IMG/VR virus record: IMGVR_UViG_3300048672_000059
Span: 1-23,458 of that record
Strand: one strand, 5' to 3'
Origin: a virus
Length of the DNA: 23,458 bases
Shown here: piece after piece, positions 14,313 through 21,032 of the stretch
Position numbering within the stretch: position 1 is the first letter of the stretch
Layout of the letters: each line of letters starts with the position of its first letter
The notes under the pieces: generated by a model
Told to the model about the DNA's origin: nothing
The model's database searches: none
What the model saw: only the letters and a program-made list of their open reading frames with translations
Made by a program: the position numbers and the translations under genes

Positions 14313-17300
14313 ATGGATTTCTTTCGTGTCGCGATGAGAGAAATCGAAAAAGGACCTCATAAGGGGTCGTTTGAAGTTTACCCCGATTTCGTAGTTCGGC
14401 GATCAAAAGACCTAATGGTTCGTGGAAAAGCATTCCACGCTATCTGGGATGAAGAACAAGGCCTCTGGTCTACAGATGAATACGACGTCGTTCGTCTTGT
14501 GGATGAAGCTCTAGATAAGTTTGCTGCTGAACAAAAAGCTATCGGGGTTACTTGTAGGGTGAAACATCTGTCTTCGTTTAAGACAAATGGCTGGACGCAG
14601 TTCCGAAATTATGTAGGACGAGTATCAGATAATGGCTGTGAACTGGACGCATCTCTAACGTTTCAGAATTCAGTCATAACTAAGAACGACCATGCTAGTC
14701 GTCGACTCCCGTATAAATTGGAGTCGGGGAGTTATGAAGCTTGGGATGAGCTTGTCAGTACTCTATATATCCCTGAAGAACGCGCAAAGATCGAATGGTG
14801 TATAGGTTCTATTGTTGCCGGAGACTCCAAGAGTATACAGAAGTTTGCTGTGTTTTATGGAAAACCGGGAACTGGTAAGTCTACCATATTTGACATTATC
14901 TTTAAATTGTTTGATGGATACTGTGTTACTTTCGATGCGAAAGCTCTTGTTGGCACCAATAATAGTTTTGCTACGGAAGCATTCCGGGGCAACCCCTTGG
15001 TTGCTATCGAGCACGACAGTGACTTGTCTAAGATCGAAGATAATAGTAAACTAAACTCAATCGTCTCCCACGAAGAGATGACGTTTAATGAGAAGTACAA
15101 ACCCGCGTATACTTCTCGAAGTCGTGCTATGTTGTTCATTGGTACCAATAAACCCGTTAAGATCACGGATGCCAAAGCGGGAATCATTAGACGTCTGCTA
15201 GACATTAATCCTAGTGGAAATATTATTCCTGCTAATCATTACTTTGAACTTATCTCTAGAATTAATTTCGAGTTGGGTGCAATCGCGCAGCATTGCCTTG
15301 ATGTGTATAGGACGATGGGTAAGAATTATTATAATGCGTATCGCCCACTCGAGATGATGTATCGCACTGACGTCTTCTTCAATTTTGTAGAAGCTTATTA
15401 CGATGTCTTTAAATCTCAGAATGGTGCTACACTTCAACAAGCGTATGACTTGTATAGGGAGTACTGCAAGGAATCTGGGATAGATTGGGTTCTTCCGAAA
15501 TACAAATTCCGGGACGAATTCAAGAACTACTTTGATTCATTTGACGAACGTTGCACCGTTGATGGCGAAGCTCGGCGAAACTACTACAGTGGATTTTCTG
15601 CCGAACCTTATCGAAGAAAAGAAAAAGTCGAAGAAGTTGTTCCGCCAGCATTTGAGATAGATCAAACGGTCTCTTTGTTGGATGCATATTTGGCTGATTG
15701 CCCGGCTCAGTATGCTAAGGATGATGGTACGCCAAAACAACGATGGTCTCAGGTTACAACTACTTTGGCTGACCTAGATACGACAAAACTGCACTATGTA
15801 AAAGTACCAGAAAACCATATCGTAATTGACTTCGATTTGAAGGAAGACGATGGAATTACAAAATCTCTTGAGAGAAATATCGAGGCGGCTGGTCTTTGGC
15901 CTACCACTTACGGAGAACGTAGTAAAAGCGGTTCAGGAATCCATCTCCATTACAATTACACCGGAGATGATGCCGGAGAACTCGCTTCGAATTACGCTCC
16001 AGGAATTGAAGTCAAATCATTTCGTGGAGGCGCTAGTCTTCGTCGACGAGTTAACGGAAGCAATAAAGTTCCAGTCGCCGCAATAACTAGTGGTCTCCCG
16101 CTAAAGGAGAGCAAACCAGTGATCGAAGATGCGGTCATTAAATCGGAAAAGGGTCTTCGCGATCTTATAGATCGAAATCTTAGAAAAGAGATACACCCGG
16201 GTACTAAACCAAGTGTCGACTTTATTGCGAAGATCCTAGATGATGCATACGCCTCGGGTCTTGCCTATGACGTCACCGATCTTCGTTCCAAATTGATCGT
16301 GTTTGCAAATAACAGCACCAACCAATCTATGGCTGCGCTCAAAATTGTGCAGCATATGAAGTTCAAATCTGAAGAAACAACGACCAAGGAACCAGAAGTT
16401 GTAGAAGATCGTCTGGTGTTCTTTGACGTTGAGGTATTTCCAAATCTATTTGTGATTTGTTGGAAGTACGAGGGTTCTTCAACGGTAATTCGTATGATCA
16501 ATCCTACGGCCCAACAAGTCGAGGCACTATTCAAATTTAAACTTGTAGGATTCAACAACCGTAGATACGATAACCATATTCTATGGGGAGCATATCTTGG
16601 TTACACTAACCTTATGCTTTACAAACTCTCGAAGCGGATCATCGACAACGATCAAGGGGCATTGTTCGGCAAAGCGTATGATTTGTCTTATACTGATATC
16701 TACGATTTTTCTAGCAAGAAGCAGAGCCTCAAGAAGTTCGAAATAGAACTTGGCATTGCGCATGTGGAACTAAACTTCCCCTGGGATCAACCAGTCCCTG
16801 AGGAGAGTTGGGTTGAAGTAGCCGACTATTGTGCGAATGATGTTACGGCTACAGATGCTGTATTTATGGCTCGTAAGGGCGACTGGGATGCCAGAAAGAT
16901 CCTTGCTGAACTGAGTGGGCTTTCTCCTAACGATACTACTCAGAAGCACACTGCGCAGATCATATTCGGTGACGATCGAAATCCTCAAAGATCATTCATA
17001 TATACCGACTTATCGAAGGAATTTGATGGGTACAATTATTCTCGTGGTACTTCTAACTATCGCGATGAGACCGTTGGTGAAGGGGGTTATGTCTATGCTG
17101 AACCCGGCATCTACTCGGACGTTGCCCTATTGGACGTTGCGAGCATGCATCCTACCTCCATCAAAGAGCTCAACGTATTTGGCGAATATACAGATCGATT
17201 CTGGGAACTCGTCGAAGGCCGGCTGGCTGTTAAGCATAAGAAGTACGAGGAAGCCCGGACGCTACTTGGTGGTAAACTGTCGAAGTTTCTGGACCCTTCT

Positions 17301-18092
17301 AATCCAGACTTGGATGCGGCTGCCGGAGCTTTGGCGTATGCTCTCAAAATTGTCGTCAACATCGTCTACGGACTTACATCGGCTCCCTTCGACAATCCCT
17401 TCAGAGATCCTCGAAATAAAGACAATATCGTCGCCAAACGAGGGTCTCTCTTCATGATCGATCTGAAGCACGCTGTTCAAGAGCGGGGCTTCACGGTTGC
17501 TCACATTAAGACCGACTCCATCAAGATCCCAAACGCAACACCTGAGATCATCCAGTTTGTGATGGATTTCGGAAAGCAGTATGGCTATACATTCGAACAT
17601 GAGGCTACCTACTCTAAGTTCTGTCTCGTGAACGACGCTGTCTACATCGCAAATGATGGTACAGACTGGCATGCTGTAGGAGCACAATTCCAACATCCGT
17701 ACGTATTTAAGACTCTCTTCAATGACGCTGATATAGAGTTCTCGGATCTTTGCGAGGCTCGCAGTGTTAAGGAAGGAGCTATGTATCTGGACTTCGACAA
17801 TATCCCTAAGGCAGATATCAATGAAGAAACCATTGGTCGCTGGAAGTTCGTGGGACGCACTGGCTTGTTCACTCCAGTCAAGCCGGATTGCGGTGGAGGA
17901 ACTCTCTATCGTGTTAAGGGCGACAAGACGTACGCGGTAACTGGAACCAAGGGTTATTTCTGGGCCGAATCATTGAATGTTAAACATGATGGTCTCGACT
18001 CGATTGATATGAATTATTTCGAGACAATGGCAGAAGAAGCCATAGCCACTATCGAAAAGTTTGGTTCATTTAAGGAATTTGTATATGGATAA
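14313..18092 (+). CDS. SF3 helicase - AEP primase - family B-like DNA polymerase fusion
   Basis: A 1259-residue replication protein with AGGAAGGGG before ATG. Residues about 140-400 hold a superfamily 3/D5-like helicase: Walker A GKPGTGKST (183-191), Walker B L-V-A-I-E-H-D (229-235), sensor N279 in G-T-N-K-P, and G-I-I-R-R. Residues about 465-600 hold an AEP primase: D506-F-D508 and S-G-S-G-I-H544. From about 700 comes a family B-like polymerase: exonuclease motifs F-D705-V-E707, N-N-R-R-Y-D and Y839-C-A-N-D843; polymerase motif A D941-V-A-S-M-H-P; motif B K1012-I-V-V-N-I-V-Y-G; motif C K-T-D1068-S. Helicase, primer synthesis and proofreading synthesis are thus in one chain. Motif C has Lys where the first Asp of DTD usually is. 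Domains read from motifs only. Confidence 0.88.
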   Translation: MDFFRVAMREIEKGPHKGSFEVYPDFVVRRSKDLMVRGKAFHAIWDEEQGLWSTDEYDVVRLVDEALDKFAAEQKAIGVTCRVKHLSSFKTNGWTQFRNYVGRVSDNGCELDASLTFQNSVITKNDHASRRLPYKLESGSYEAWDELVSTLYIPEERAKIEWCIGSIVAGDSKSIQKFAVFYGKPGTGKSTIFDIIFKLFDGYCVTFDAKALVGTNNSFATEAFRGNPLVAIEHDSDLSKIEDNSKLNSIVSHEEMTFNEKYKPAYTSRSRAMLFIGTNKPVKITDAKAGIIRRLLDINPSGNIIPANHYFELISRINFELGAIAQHCLDVYRTMGKNYYNAYRPLEMMYRTDVFFNFVEAYYDVFKSQNGATLQQAYDLYREYCKESGIDWVLPKYKFRDEFKNYFDSFDERCTVDGEARRNYYSGFSAEPYRRKEKVEEVVPPAFEIDQTVSLLDAYLADCPAQYAKDDGTPKQRWSQVTTTLADLDTTKLHYVKVPENHIVIDFDLKEDDGITKSLERNIEAAGLWPTTYGERSKSGSGIHLHYNYTGDDAGELASNYAPGIEVKSFRGGASLRRRVNGSNKVPVAAITSGLPLKESKPVIEDAVIKSEKGLRDLIDRNLRKEIHPGTKPSVDFIAKILDDAYASGLAYDVTDLRSKLIVFANNSTNQSMAALKIVQHMKFKSEETTTKEPEVVEDRLVFFDVEVFPNLFVICWKYEGSSTVIRMINPTAQQVEALFKFKLVGFNNRRYDNHILWGAYLGYTNLMLYKLSKRIIDNDQGALFGKAYDLSYTDIYDFSSKKQSLKKFEIELGIAHVELNFPWDQPVPEESWVEVADYCANDVTATDAVFMARKGDWDARKILAELSGLSPNDTTQKHTAQIIFGDDRNPQRSFIYTDLSKEFDGYNYSRGTSNYRDETVGEGGYVYAEPGIYSDVALLDVASMHPTSIKELNVFGEYTDRFWELVEGRLAVKHKKYEEARTLLGGKLSKFLDPSNPDLDAAAGALAYALKIVVNIVYGLTSAPFDNPFRDPRNKDNIVAKRGSLFMIDLKHAVQERGFTVAHIKTDSIKIPNATPEIIQFVMDFGKQYGYTFEHEATYSKFCLVNDAVYIANDGTDWHAVGAQFQHPYVFKTLFNDADIEFSDLCEARSVKEGAMYLDFDNIPKADINEETIGRWKFVGRTGLFTPVKPDCGGGTLYRVKGDKTYAVTGTKGYFWAESLNVKHDGLDSIDMNYFETMAEEAIATIEKFGSFKEFVYG

Positions 18093-18177
18093 GAATTCTA
18101 AAGATGCACTTGGATCTGTTCTCCTGGTGATAATGGTTATTGCTATATTGGTGCTTGTTGGCACCTTCTGTGATTAG
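18085..18177 (+). CDS. 30-residue membrane microprotein
   Basis: ATG at 18085 overlaps the end of the polymerase gene by 8 nt and follows AAGGA (18072-18076). The product is a hydrophilic start (M-D-K-N-S-K-D) and one helix of about 20 hydrophobic residues (V-L-L-V-I-M-V-I-A-I-L-V-L-V-G). Overlap coupling and SD spacing support translation. Function unknown; a membrane anchor or small exclusion peptide is possible. Confidence 0.55.
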   Translation: MDKNSKDALGSVLLVIMVIAILVLVGTFCD

Positions 18178-18190
18178 AAAGGTTTTACCT

Positions 18191-18481
18191 ATGAGTGTTC
18201 GTACCTATCGCCCCAAGGGTACCTCGGCTAAGGCTATCCAATTCACCAAGGAAGAAGCTGAAGAAGCCCGCGATTGGTGCAATGGGCGACTGGTGGAAGT
18301 CGAAGGTAACTGGATTCTGCTAGTAGCTACTTTTGACGGTGTACTCGAGGTCAAGGAAGGTGACTACCTTTACTTCGTCAAGAACGAAGGATTCGCTTCC
18401 CTATCTCAGAAGGAATTCGAGGCGCGTTTCGAACCAATCCGCGTTACTCGAAGCGAAGTTGCTTCTGCTGTCGGCGCTTAA
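18191..18481 (+). CDS. Small phage protein of the 'GDYL/GDWI' type, copy 1
   Basis: A 96-residue protein; ATG 18191 is preferred to an upstream in-frame start because the family begins near R-T-Y-R-P-K-G. It reads A-I-Q-F-T, a helix with D-W-C-N-G, two strands, then E-G-D-Y-L-Y-F-V and a final F-E-A-R-F-E-P-I. This mix of beta strands with a conserved G-D-(Y/W)-(L/I) turn and an F-x-x-x-(F/Y)-E end is common in small phage proteins. The gene at 19324 has the same layout, so they are paralogues. Role unknown. Confidence 0.72.
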   Translation: MSVRTYRPKGTSAKAIQFTKEEAEEARDWCNGRLVEVEGNWILLVATFDGVLEVKEGDYLYFVKNEGFASLSQKEFEARFEPIRVTRSEVASAVGA

Positions 18482-19323: not shown

Positions 19324-19605
19324 ATGATCACCTCTCACACTTATGTTCGAAAGCCATTCCTAGTAGATGCGGTTCAGGTAACTGAGGAGAATTTCGTCGA
19401 CGTATGCCTCTGGTGTCAGGGATCTGCTCGTAACGATGATGGAAAGTACATCAAGGTTCGAGTTCTTCGAGCTTTGGGTGAGAACCAGACCAAGGCTCGA
19501 GTTGGAGACTGGATTCTGTACGCAGGAAAAGGCTACAAGGTATACACTAACGCCGCATTCCACGCTGCTTTCGAACTTCTGTCCCTCCGATCAATAGATG
19601 CGTAA
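19324..19605 (+). CDS. Small phage protein of the 'GDYL/GDWI' type, copy 2
   Basis: A 93-residue protein starting at ATG 19324, SD weak (AGAGAAAG further upstream). It has V-D-A-V-Q-V-T, a helix ending in W-C-Q-G, strands, V-G-D-W-I-L-Y, and a final F-H-A-A-F-E-L-L. The layout matches the 18191 gene, including W-C-(N/Q)-G and G-D-(Y/W)-(L/I), so it is a diverged paralogue separated by three genes. Function unknown. Confidence 0.72.
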   Translation: MITSHTYVRKPFLVDAVQVTEENFVDVCLWCQGSARNDDGKYIKVRVLRALGENQTKARVGDWILYAGKGYKVYTNAAFHAAFELLSLRSIDA

Positions 19606-20116: not shown

Positions 20117-20527
20117 ATGCGGTTTGTCGTGAACAGTAAGGCTTGGATGACGTTTGTCCTAGTACTCGTCATTGGTGTGACCGTCGGCTTCTTTGCCTAC
20201 ACTCCTCGCGAGAATGGTGCGGACTCGGGAATCAAGGGTTGCCAGGGAATTGCTGCTAATGCAGCGTCCCCAAAGGCTTCCGGAAGTAAGAAGAACACCC
20301 CTATGACTGAGTCTGACTATCGGAAGAATCGAAAGATCTACGAAGATTCCAAGTATGCGGATCTTAAGGCCGCGGGAACTTCTGTGATTGACACTGTGTA
20401 TGACATGTCTCAGGACACGGGCCAGGACTACTCGGGAAGTATGGCTGACCTGTATACCCTTCGTGATCATTGGGCTTCTTTGAAGCGTGCATGCGCGAAC
20501 CACGGCGTTACTATTCCTTCTTTGTGA
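20117..20527 (+). CDS. Membrane-anchored or exported protein
   Basis: A 136-residue protein; ATG 20117 has a strong AGGAGGA 5 nt before it. Residues about 11-28 are a single hydrophobic N-terminal helix (F-V-L-V-L-V-I-G-V-T-V-G-F-F-A), either a signal anchor or signal peptide. The rest is hydrophilic, with C42 and one Cys near the C-terminus that could form a disulphide outside the cell. Ser/Lys-rich linker, then a helical Y-R-K-N-R-K-I-Y-E-D segment. A surface role such as superinfection exclusion is possible. No family recognised. Confidence 0.68.
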   Translation: MRFVVNSKAWMTFVLVLVIGVTVGFFAYTPRENGADSGIKGCQGIAANAASPKASGSKKNTPMTESDYRKNRKIYEDSKYADLKAAGTSVIDTVYDMSQDTGQDYSGSMADLYTLRDHWASLKRACANHGVTIPSL

Positions 20528-20538
20528 GGAGGTGTAAT

Positions 20539-20778
20539 ATGACTTATATGTATATCGACGACTTTAATTCCGATTACGAAGCAAGAAGTCCTCGCTATCC
20601 TTTGAAGTTTGTATTTTCTGAAGAGTTCATGAAACCATATCGAGAGTTTTTTAATTCTAAAGCGTTGGGTTTGGGGACTAAAGAAAATCCAATGATCTCG
20701 CTTACTGACGAGGAAAGCGCTAATGACCTTCCGATGGAAGATATAAATGACGCGCCTCTTGAAGGATATGGATGCTAA
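20539..20778 (+). CDS. Acidic hypothetical protein
   Basis: A 79-residue protein with GTGAGGAGGT before ATG 20539, an excellent SD. Very acidic in its second half (D-E-E-S-A-N-D-L-P-M-E-D). N-terminal Tyr/Asp-rich. No membrane helix or motif. It overlaps the Acb2-like gene by one base (TAATG), so the two are translated together and could act together. Confidence 0.65.
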   Translation: MTYMYIDDFNSDYEARSPRYPLKFVFSEEFMKPYREFFNSKALGLGTKENPMISLTDEESANDLPMEDINDAPLEGYGC

Positions 20779-21032
20779 TGTTGAGTCCTAATGATATAGC
20801 TCAAAGGTTCGGACAACATATTCCGACTCCTGAGGCTGCAAAACAACATTACGATTTGCGTGAAAGTTTCGTCCTCTTTGCTGGGATTCTGGCTACCACT
20901 CTTCCTGAGGGTCGCGAGAAGGAGGAAGCGCTTCTTCGTCTTGAGGAAGCATCGATGTGGGCACACAAGGCTGTCGCAATGCCCAACCCTCTAGTTCCGA
21001 TGGGGGTGCAGCGTCGTCGTGCGAAAAGCTAA
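20778..21032 (+). CDS. Acb2/Tad1-like cyclic-nucleotide sponge (anti-CBASS/Thoeris candidate)
   Basis: An 84-residue helical protein. R10-F-x-x-H14-x-P16, then R28, and P43-x-x-R46-E-K-x-x-A-L-x-R-L-E56-E57-A58-x-x-W61-A-x-x-A65-V-A match the pattern I associate with the Acb2_Tad1 hairpin domain of phage proteins. Acb2 binds cyclic di- and trinucleotides and blocks CBASS signalling; Tad1 sequesters Thoeris signals. The A-L-x-R-L-E-E-A-x-x-W-A helix is the key block. Its length fits the single-domain form. It follows the acidic 20539 gene with a 1-nt overlap. Family recognition is by pattern, so binding and specificity remain inferred. Confidence 0.72.
   Translation: MLSPNDIAQRFGQHIPTPEAAKQHYDLRESFVLFAGILATTLPEGREKEEALLRLEEASMWAHKAVAMPNPLVPMGVQRRRAKS

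Follow-up and report, generated by a model that had tools for sequence, protein, structure and literature searches.

In Acb2 proteins, a short helix at the N terminus precedes a pair of long antiparallel helices (PMC12043709). In phage T4 Vs.4 bound to cGAMP, the ligand is stacked on Y8 and F82, and polar contacts are made by Y8, H11, K23 and R79 (PMC10097602). Binding is impaired by S74N, by Y8A and F82A, which lower it more than 5-fold and more than 25-fold, respectively, and by changes at the interface residues L29, A66, A73 and A77, mutations of which abolish hexamers (PMC10097602). T68M decreases the affinity of T4 Acb2, and Y8A has been described as a binding-deficient mutant (PMC12657230). 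Members from actinophages have already been named Acb2 or cyclic-oligonucleotide sequestration proteins, namely Statler gp57 (PMC13348362) and those of Xandras and BigBubba (PMC11953737). Xandras gp101 (L016, 10262-10459) is a cyclic nucleotide sequestering protein in the text of that paper and a hypothetical protein in the deposited record. In this study, we report an acb2-like gene that adds to this known family of immune-signal sponges in phages of actinobacteria, most copies of which are deposited as hypothetical proteins.

The window, which is the whole stretch of DNA analysed (23,458 nucleotides), corresponds to a virus record of 23.5 kb and includes a tail and replication module. A 1259-aa primase-polymerase encoded at 14313-18092 is ~59% identical to those of Gordonia phages of Tanisvirus type, suggesting a phage near the Tanisvirus-type actinophages. 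Two small genes at 18140-18481 and 19324-19605 are distant paralogs (25% identity, E 1e-6), and the latter falls in a widely distributed set of function-unknown phage families (phrog_35556, phrog_14977 and phrog_1810). The 136-aa protein encoded at 20117-20527 has one N-terminal hydrophobic segment (~residues 7-28) followed by a soluble domain, gave no family match, and is 100% identical in the sibling contig L002, being more conserved than its neighbours. The features of the acb2-like locus are listed in Table 1.

Table 1. Features of the acb2-like locus, with positions numbered from the first letter of the window
Feature	Position	Strand	Remarks
Upstream acidic ORF	20539..20778	+	79 aa, pI 4.2; two L002 genes apparently fused by a deletion
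GAAGGA, possible ribosome-binding site	20761..20766	+	5 nt before ATG 20772, 11 nt before ATG 20778
acb2-like gene	20778..21032	+	84 aa; start codon from 20778, last stop base 21032; Pfam, PHROG, dN/dS
Gln13 codon	20814..20816	+	Place of the stacking aromatic, Vs.4 Tyr8 / Acb2 Tyr11
Acb2_Tad1_hairpin domain	20817..20978	+	Residues 14-67, Pfam envelope
Arg28 codon	20859..20861	+	Place of Vs.4 Lys23 (cGAMP contact); ungapped VIA-align register, first half
Leu53 codon	20934..20936	+	Place of Vs.4 Thr68
Ser59-Lys64 codons	20952..20969	+	Equivalents of Vs.4 Ser74 (Ser59) and Arg79 (Lys64), each contact retained in type

The limits of the 84-residue frame given in a preliminary description of this DNA, made from the sequence, agree with the start and stop codons found here. 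An alternative in-frame ATG at 20772 would extend the product to 86 aa, and the spacing of the GAAGGA element is better for this codon than for ATG 20778; a start equivalent to 20778 is present in most relatives, with the pattern M-L-x-x-x-[DE]-[IVL]. From its sibling in L002, the product of which is near-identical (96%), the gene differs synonymously at 12 codons and non-synonymously at 3, and the resulting dN/dS of ~0.07 indicates purifying selection. The C-terminal tail of the protein (PLVPMGVQRRRAKS) is basic and is not conserved among relatives.

The acidic ORF immediately upstream appears to be a deletion fusion. At positions 5419-5998 of L002 it matches two separate genes, the beginning of the first being joined to the final ~16 residues encoded by the second, and the window is without ~350 bp present in L002, the surrounding DNA being 95% identical. 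The missing segment spans the greater part of the second gene, which is weakly similar to PHROG 3954 (E 3.1e-6), and since weak PHROG relatives exist for this gene, the ~350 bp were more probably deleted in the window lineage than inserted in L002. As noted in the preliminary description, the acidic ORF and the acb2-like gene share one base, in TAATG, with the TAA of the acidic ORF at 20776-20778; this overlap derives from the tail of the second L002 gene. The acidic ORF gave no family match in Pfam or PHROG and, among the other acb2-carrying loci, it had no relative save that in the near-identical sibling L002; elsewhere the acb2-like gene does without it. Searches of Pfam and PHROG with the neighbours of the acb2-like gene found no defence or anti-defence family. 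The earlier suggestion of a counter-defence cluster (20117-21032) is not supported by these results, and a counter-defence operon with the acidic neighbour was rejected on account of that gene's restricted occurrence, its lack of a Pfam or PHROG match and its apparent origin by fusion.

The acb2-like gene is a member of the Acb2/Tad1 hairpin family, and the assignment is solid and ordinary. The 84-aa protein matched the Pfam model PF24729 (Acb2/Tad1 hairpin) at E 1.9e-11 and 44.4 bits, 17 bits over the cut-off of 27 bits; T4 Vs.4 and other phage relatives match this model as well. PHROG 1454, to which no function is assigned, was also matched (E 3.1e-18). When a profile of 13 relatives was searched against 177,635 PDB sequences, seven matches were obtained, all to Acb2, Tad1 or Vs.4: Acb2 homolog 43 (9ptq) at E 1.5e-9, five Tad1 sequences at 0.006 and Vs.4 (7uq2) at 0.02. 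With a profile of 76 relatives these values were 6.6e-11, 1.7e-4 and 0.05, respectively, and neither search of the PDB sequences returned anything outside the Acb2 homolog, Tad1 and T4 Vs.4. A profile from which the acb2-like protein and its 96% sibling had been left out still gave the ORF 73.5 bits (E 9e-22), while no shuffle out of 1,000 exceeded 8.5 bits, and none of the other window ORFs was among its top matches. The R-F-x-x-H-x-P start and the R-E-x-x-x-A-L-x-R-L-E-E-A-x-x-W-A helix, from which membership had initially been proposed, were both found in the protein, as R10-F11-G-Q-H14-I-P16 and R46-E-K-E-E-A-L-L-R-L-E-E-A-S-M-W61-A62.

Structure prediction agreed with this assignment. An AlphaFold2 monomer model, for which the input alignment was limited to window and viral-contig sequences, had a mean pLDDT of 88.9 with helices at residues 4-11, 18-41 and 46-67 and a weaker tail, the two long helices forming a hairpin around the loop LPEGREK. 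The predicted 84-aa model therefore has the Acb2 topology of a short helix followed by a two-helix hairpin. The top Foldseek match among PDB chains was 9ptq (Acb2 homolog 43 with 3'cADPR), at probability 1.00 and an E-value of only 0.11. VIA-align also placed 9ptq best (Z 8.3, rmsd 1.9, 68 residues, 28% identity), with Vs.4 (7uq2) third at Z 7.2, Acb2 (8h2x) eleventh at Z 6.5 and Tad1 (7uav) at Z 5.7. The structural match to Acb2/Tad1 on which the preliminary description had made its claim depend was thus obtained, with both 9ptq and Vs.4, and the hairpin fold and family are borne out by PF24729, the profile searches of the PDB, the model and its structure matches. Unrelated helical hairpins score middling too (5vr3, Z 7.4), and since the Foldseek E-value is 0.11, the fold would not by itself establish membership; the assignment is drawn from the sequence evidence, with which the structure agrees. 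The scores of such hairpins are what could be expected if the protein lay outside the family and were a generic helical hairpin matched by chance, but this is extremely improbable and is refuted for practical purposes by the 17 bits above the cut-off of an independent Pfam model, by PDB profile matches exclusive to the family and by the shuffle control.

Relatives of the gene are widespread among actinophages. The homologs in PSonyx (gp28), Scarif and Quhwah (gp29) are 45-48% identical to the acb2-like protein, and as tblastn queries those of PSonyx and Quhwah retrieved 165 and 172 phage records, respectively, mostly phages of Mycobacterium, Gordonia, Streptomyces, Microbacterium and Paenibacillus. 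Family members recur as small standalone ORFs in many actinobacteriophages and in Paenibacillus phages. The gene adjoins holin or lysin genes in PSonyx, Scarif and prophi91-3, lies close to portal and head genes in Quhwah, follows thyX in Jordennis, and is found by a single-strand annealing protein gene or before a helicase gene in relatives of the window phage (L003, L004, L029 and L121). These scattered locations suggest the pattern of a standalone accessory gene. In a tree of the family, Vs.4 and homolog 43 were on very long branches and their placement was disregarded.

The positions of the ligand pocket were located by two registers: the Pfam envelopes (Vs.4 7-83 on model positions 1-58; acb2-like protein 14-67 on 3-57) and VIA-align (predicted model 11-69 on Vs.4 6-84, and 8-73 on Acb2 6-92). 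A MAFFT register placing Vs.4 Tyr8 on His14 was rejected, since the Pfam envelopes and VIA-align with 7uq2, 8h2x and 9ptq all give residue 13. The interface residues L29, A66, A73 and A77 of Vs.4 correspond to F34, A51, A58 and A62, and are kept in kind. The basic and polar ligand contacts of Vs.4, Lys23, Arg79 and Ser74, are represented by Arg28, Lys64 and Ser59; position 28 is R in 123 of the 127 alignment rows. The aromatic base-stacking residue of cGAMP-binding Acb2 is replaced by Gln13; 119 of the 125 other relatives have F, Y or H there. Neither H11 nor F82 of Vs.4 is kept, the corresponding residues being P16 and A67, but Ala at position 67 is usual in nearly all relatives, so that Q13 alone is peculiar to the window lineage. 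Position 53 is Thr in 112 of the 125 other relatives; Thr53 was rejected as an invariant site, as D, E, G, I, K, R or V stand there in ~10 relatives, and Leu53 alone therefore means little. The combination of Q13 and L53 was found, among the sequences compared, only in the window and L002; the sister L003 also has no aromatic at position 13 (Thr). From these alignments the oligomer interface and the phosphate grip look preserved, and base recognition looks altered.

Loss of signal binding, leaving a hairpin with another purpose or a decaying copy, would fit the differences at four Vs.4 ligand-site residues, the confinement of Q13 with L53 to two contigs and the unconserved basic tail; it is nevertheless unlikely, given a dN/dS of ~0.07, an intact ORF and the retention of the interface and phosphate contacts. 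The best reading of the protein is as a nucleotide-signal sponge. Six copies would assemble into a compact hexamer, by analogy with the solved relatives, and the pockets between protomers would bind cyclic immune signals and hold them uncut, so that the suicide effector of the host would stay off. We estimate the probability that this Acb2/Tad1-family member acts as such a hexameric immune-signal sponge, with the hexamer, the ligand binding and the counter-defence role all inferred, at about 0.8.

Family membership does not tell the ligand, and for this protein classical cGAMP binding seems doubtful. A classical anti-CBASS Acb2, a hexamer binding 3'3'-cGAMP-type cyclic dinucleotides like Vs.4 and Pseudomonas Acb2, is a possibility we hold tentatively: the protein matches the same PF24729 model as Vs.4, retains the phosphate contacts and the Ser74 equivalent, and belongs to a family whose members are named Acb2 by actinophage annotators (PMC13348362; PMC11953737), but both base-stacking aromatics of Vs.4 are missing (Q13, A67), and Y8A and F82A weaken cGAMP binding by Vs.4 (PMC10097602). 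Tight 3'3'-cGAMP binding is less likely than in Vs.4 because the equivalents of the stacking aromatic, F82 and T68 are lost. The remaining candidate ligands are ADP-ribose-type Thoeris signals or cyclic trinucleotides. An anti-Thoeris sponge of 3'cADPR or 2'cADPR, like Acb2 homolog 43, is possible to a similar, limited degree. Homolog 43, solved with 3'cADPR, is the nearest solved relative by both sequence and structure, and in the numbering of the acb2-like protein it has Thr at 13, where the Tyr8 place is likewise non-aromatic, Ala at 67 (the F82 place) and Lys at 28 and 64 (the basic K23 and R79 places); L003 is non-aromatic at position 13 in the same way. Against this, identity to homolog 43 is 28%, it keeps the T68-equivalent Thr in place of Leu53, it has Phe for Trp61 and Met for Ser59, and that a Tyr-to-polar change admits cADPR is itself an inference. 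More speculatively, the branch comprising the window, L002 and perhaps L003 may have exchanged the stacking aromatic and cyclic dinucleotides for another signal, such as the Thoeris signal 3'cADPR, with Gln13 and Leu53 as a specificity switch. A lineage in which the residue that grips the base in cGAMP-bound relatives has changed naturally is well suited to asking whether the choice between CBASS and Thoeris signals depends on a single position.

Among known systems, the acb2-like protein shares with Tad1 (7uav, 8kbe) a hairpin with the R-E-x-x-x-A-x-T-x-x-E-E-A-x-x-W signature, but is without the N-terminal antiparallel beta-sheet domain whose loops help form the gcADPR pockets of Tad1. Ahead of the hairpin, the model of the 84-residue protein has no more than a short helix, and the profile match in Tad1 begins near residue 42 of 125; Tad1 proper was therefore rejected, and on the predicted model the protein is an Acb2-type hairpin. 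The Acb2 of Pseudomonas phage PaMx33 (8h2x, 8h2j, 8ixz) likewise pairs a short helix with a long hairpin and aligns at Z 6.5 across 64 residues, but identity is 16% and its Tyr11 is Gln13 here. T4 Vs.4 (7uq2, with cGAMP) shares PF24729, the EASMWA motif, the interface residues in kind and the equivalents of Ser74, Lys23 and Arg79, whereas its Tyr8, His11, Phe82 and Thr68 and its longer inter-helix region are without counterparts. PSonyx gp28, Scarif, Quhwah gp29 and Xandras gp101 have the same signature residues, although nearly all actinophage homologs carry Phe, Tyr or His at position 13 and most carry Thr at 53. The closest resemblance is to homolog 43 (9ptq), which has the LPEGREK loop and gives the best match in both sequence-profile and structure comparisons.
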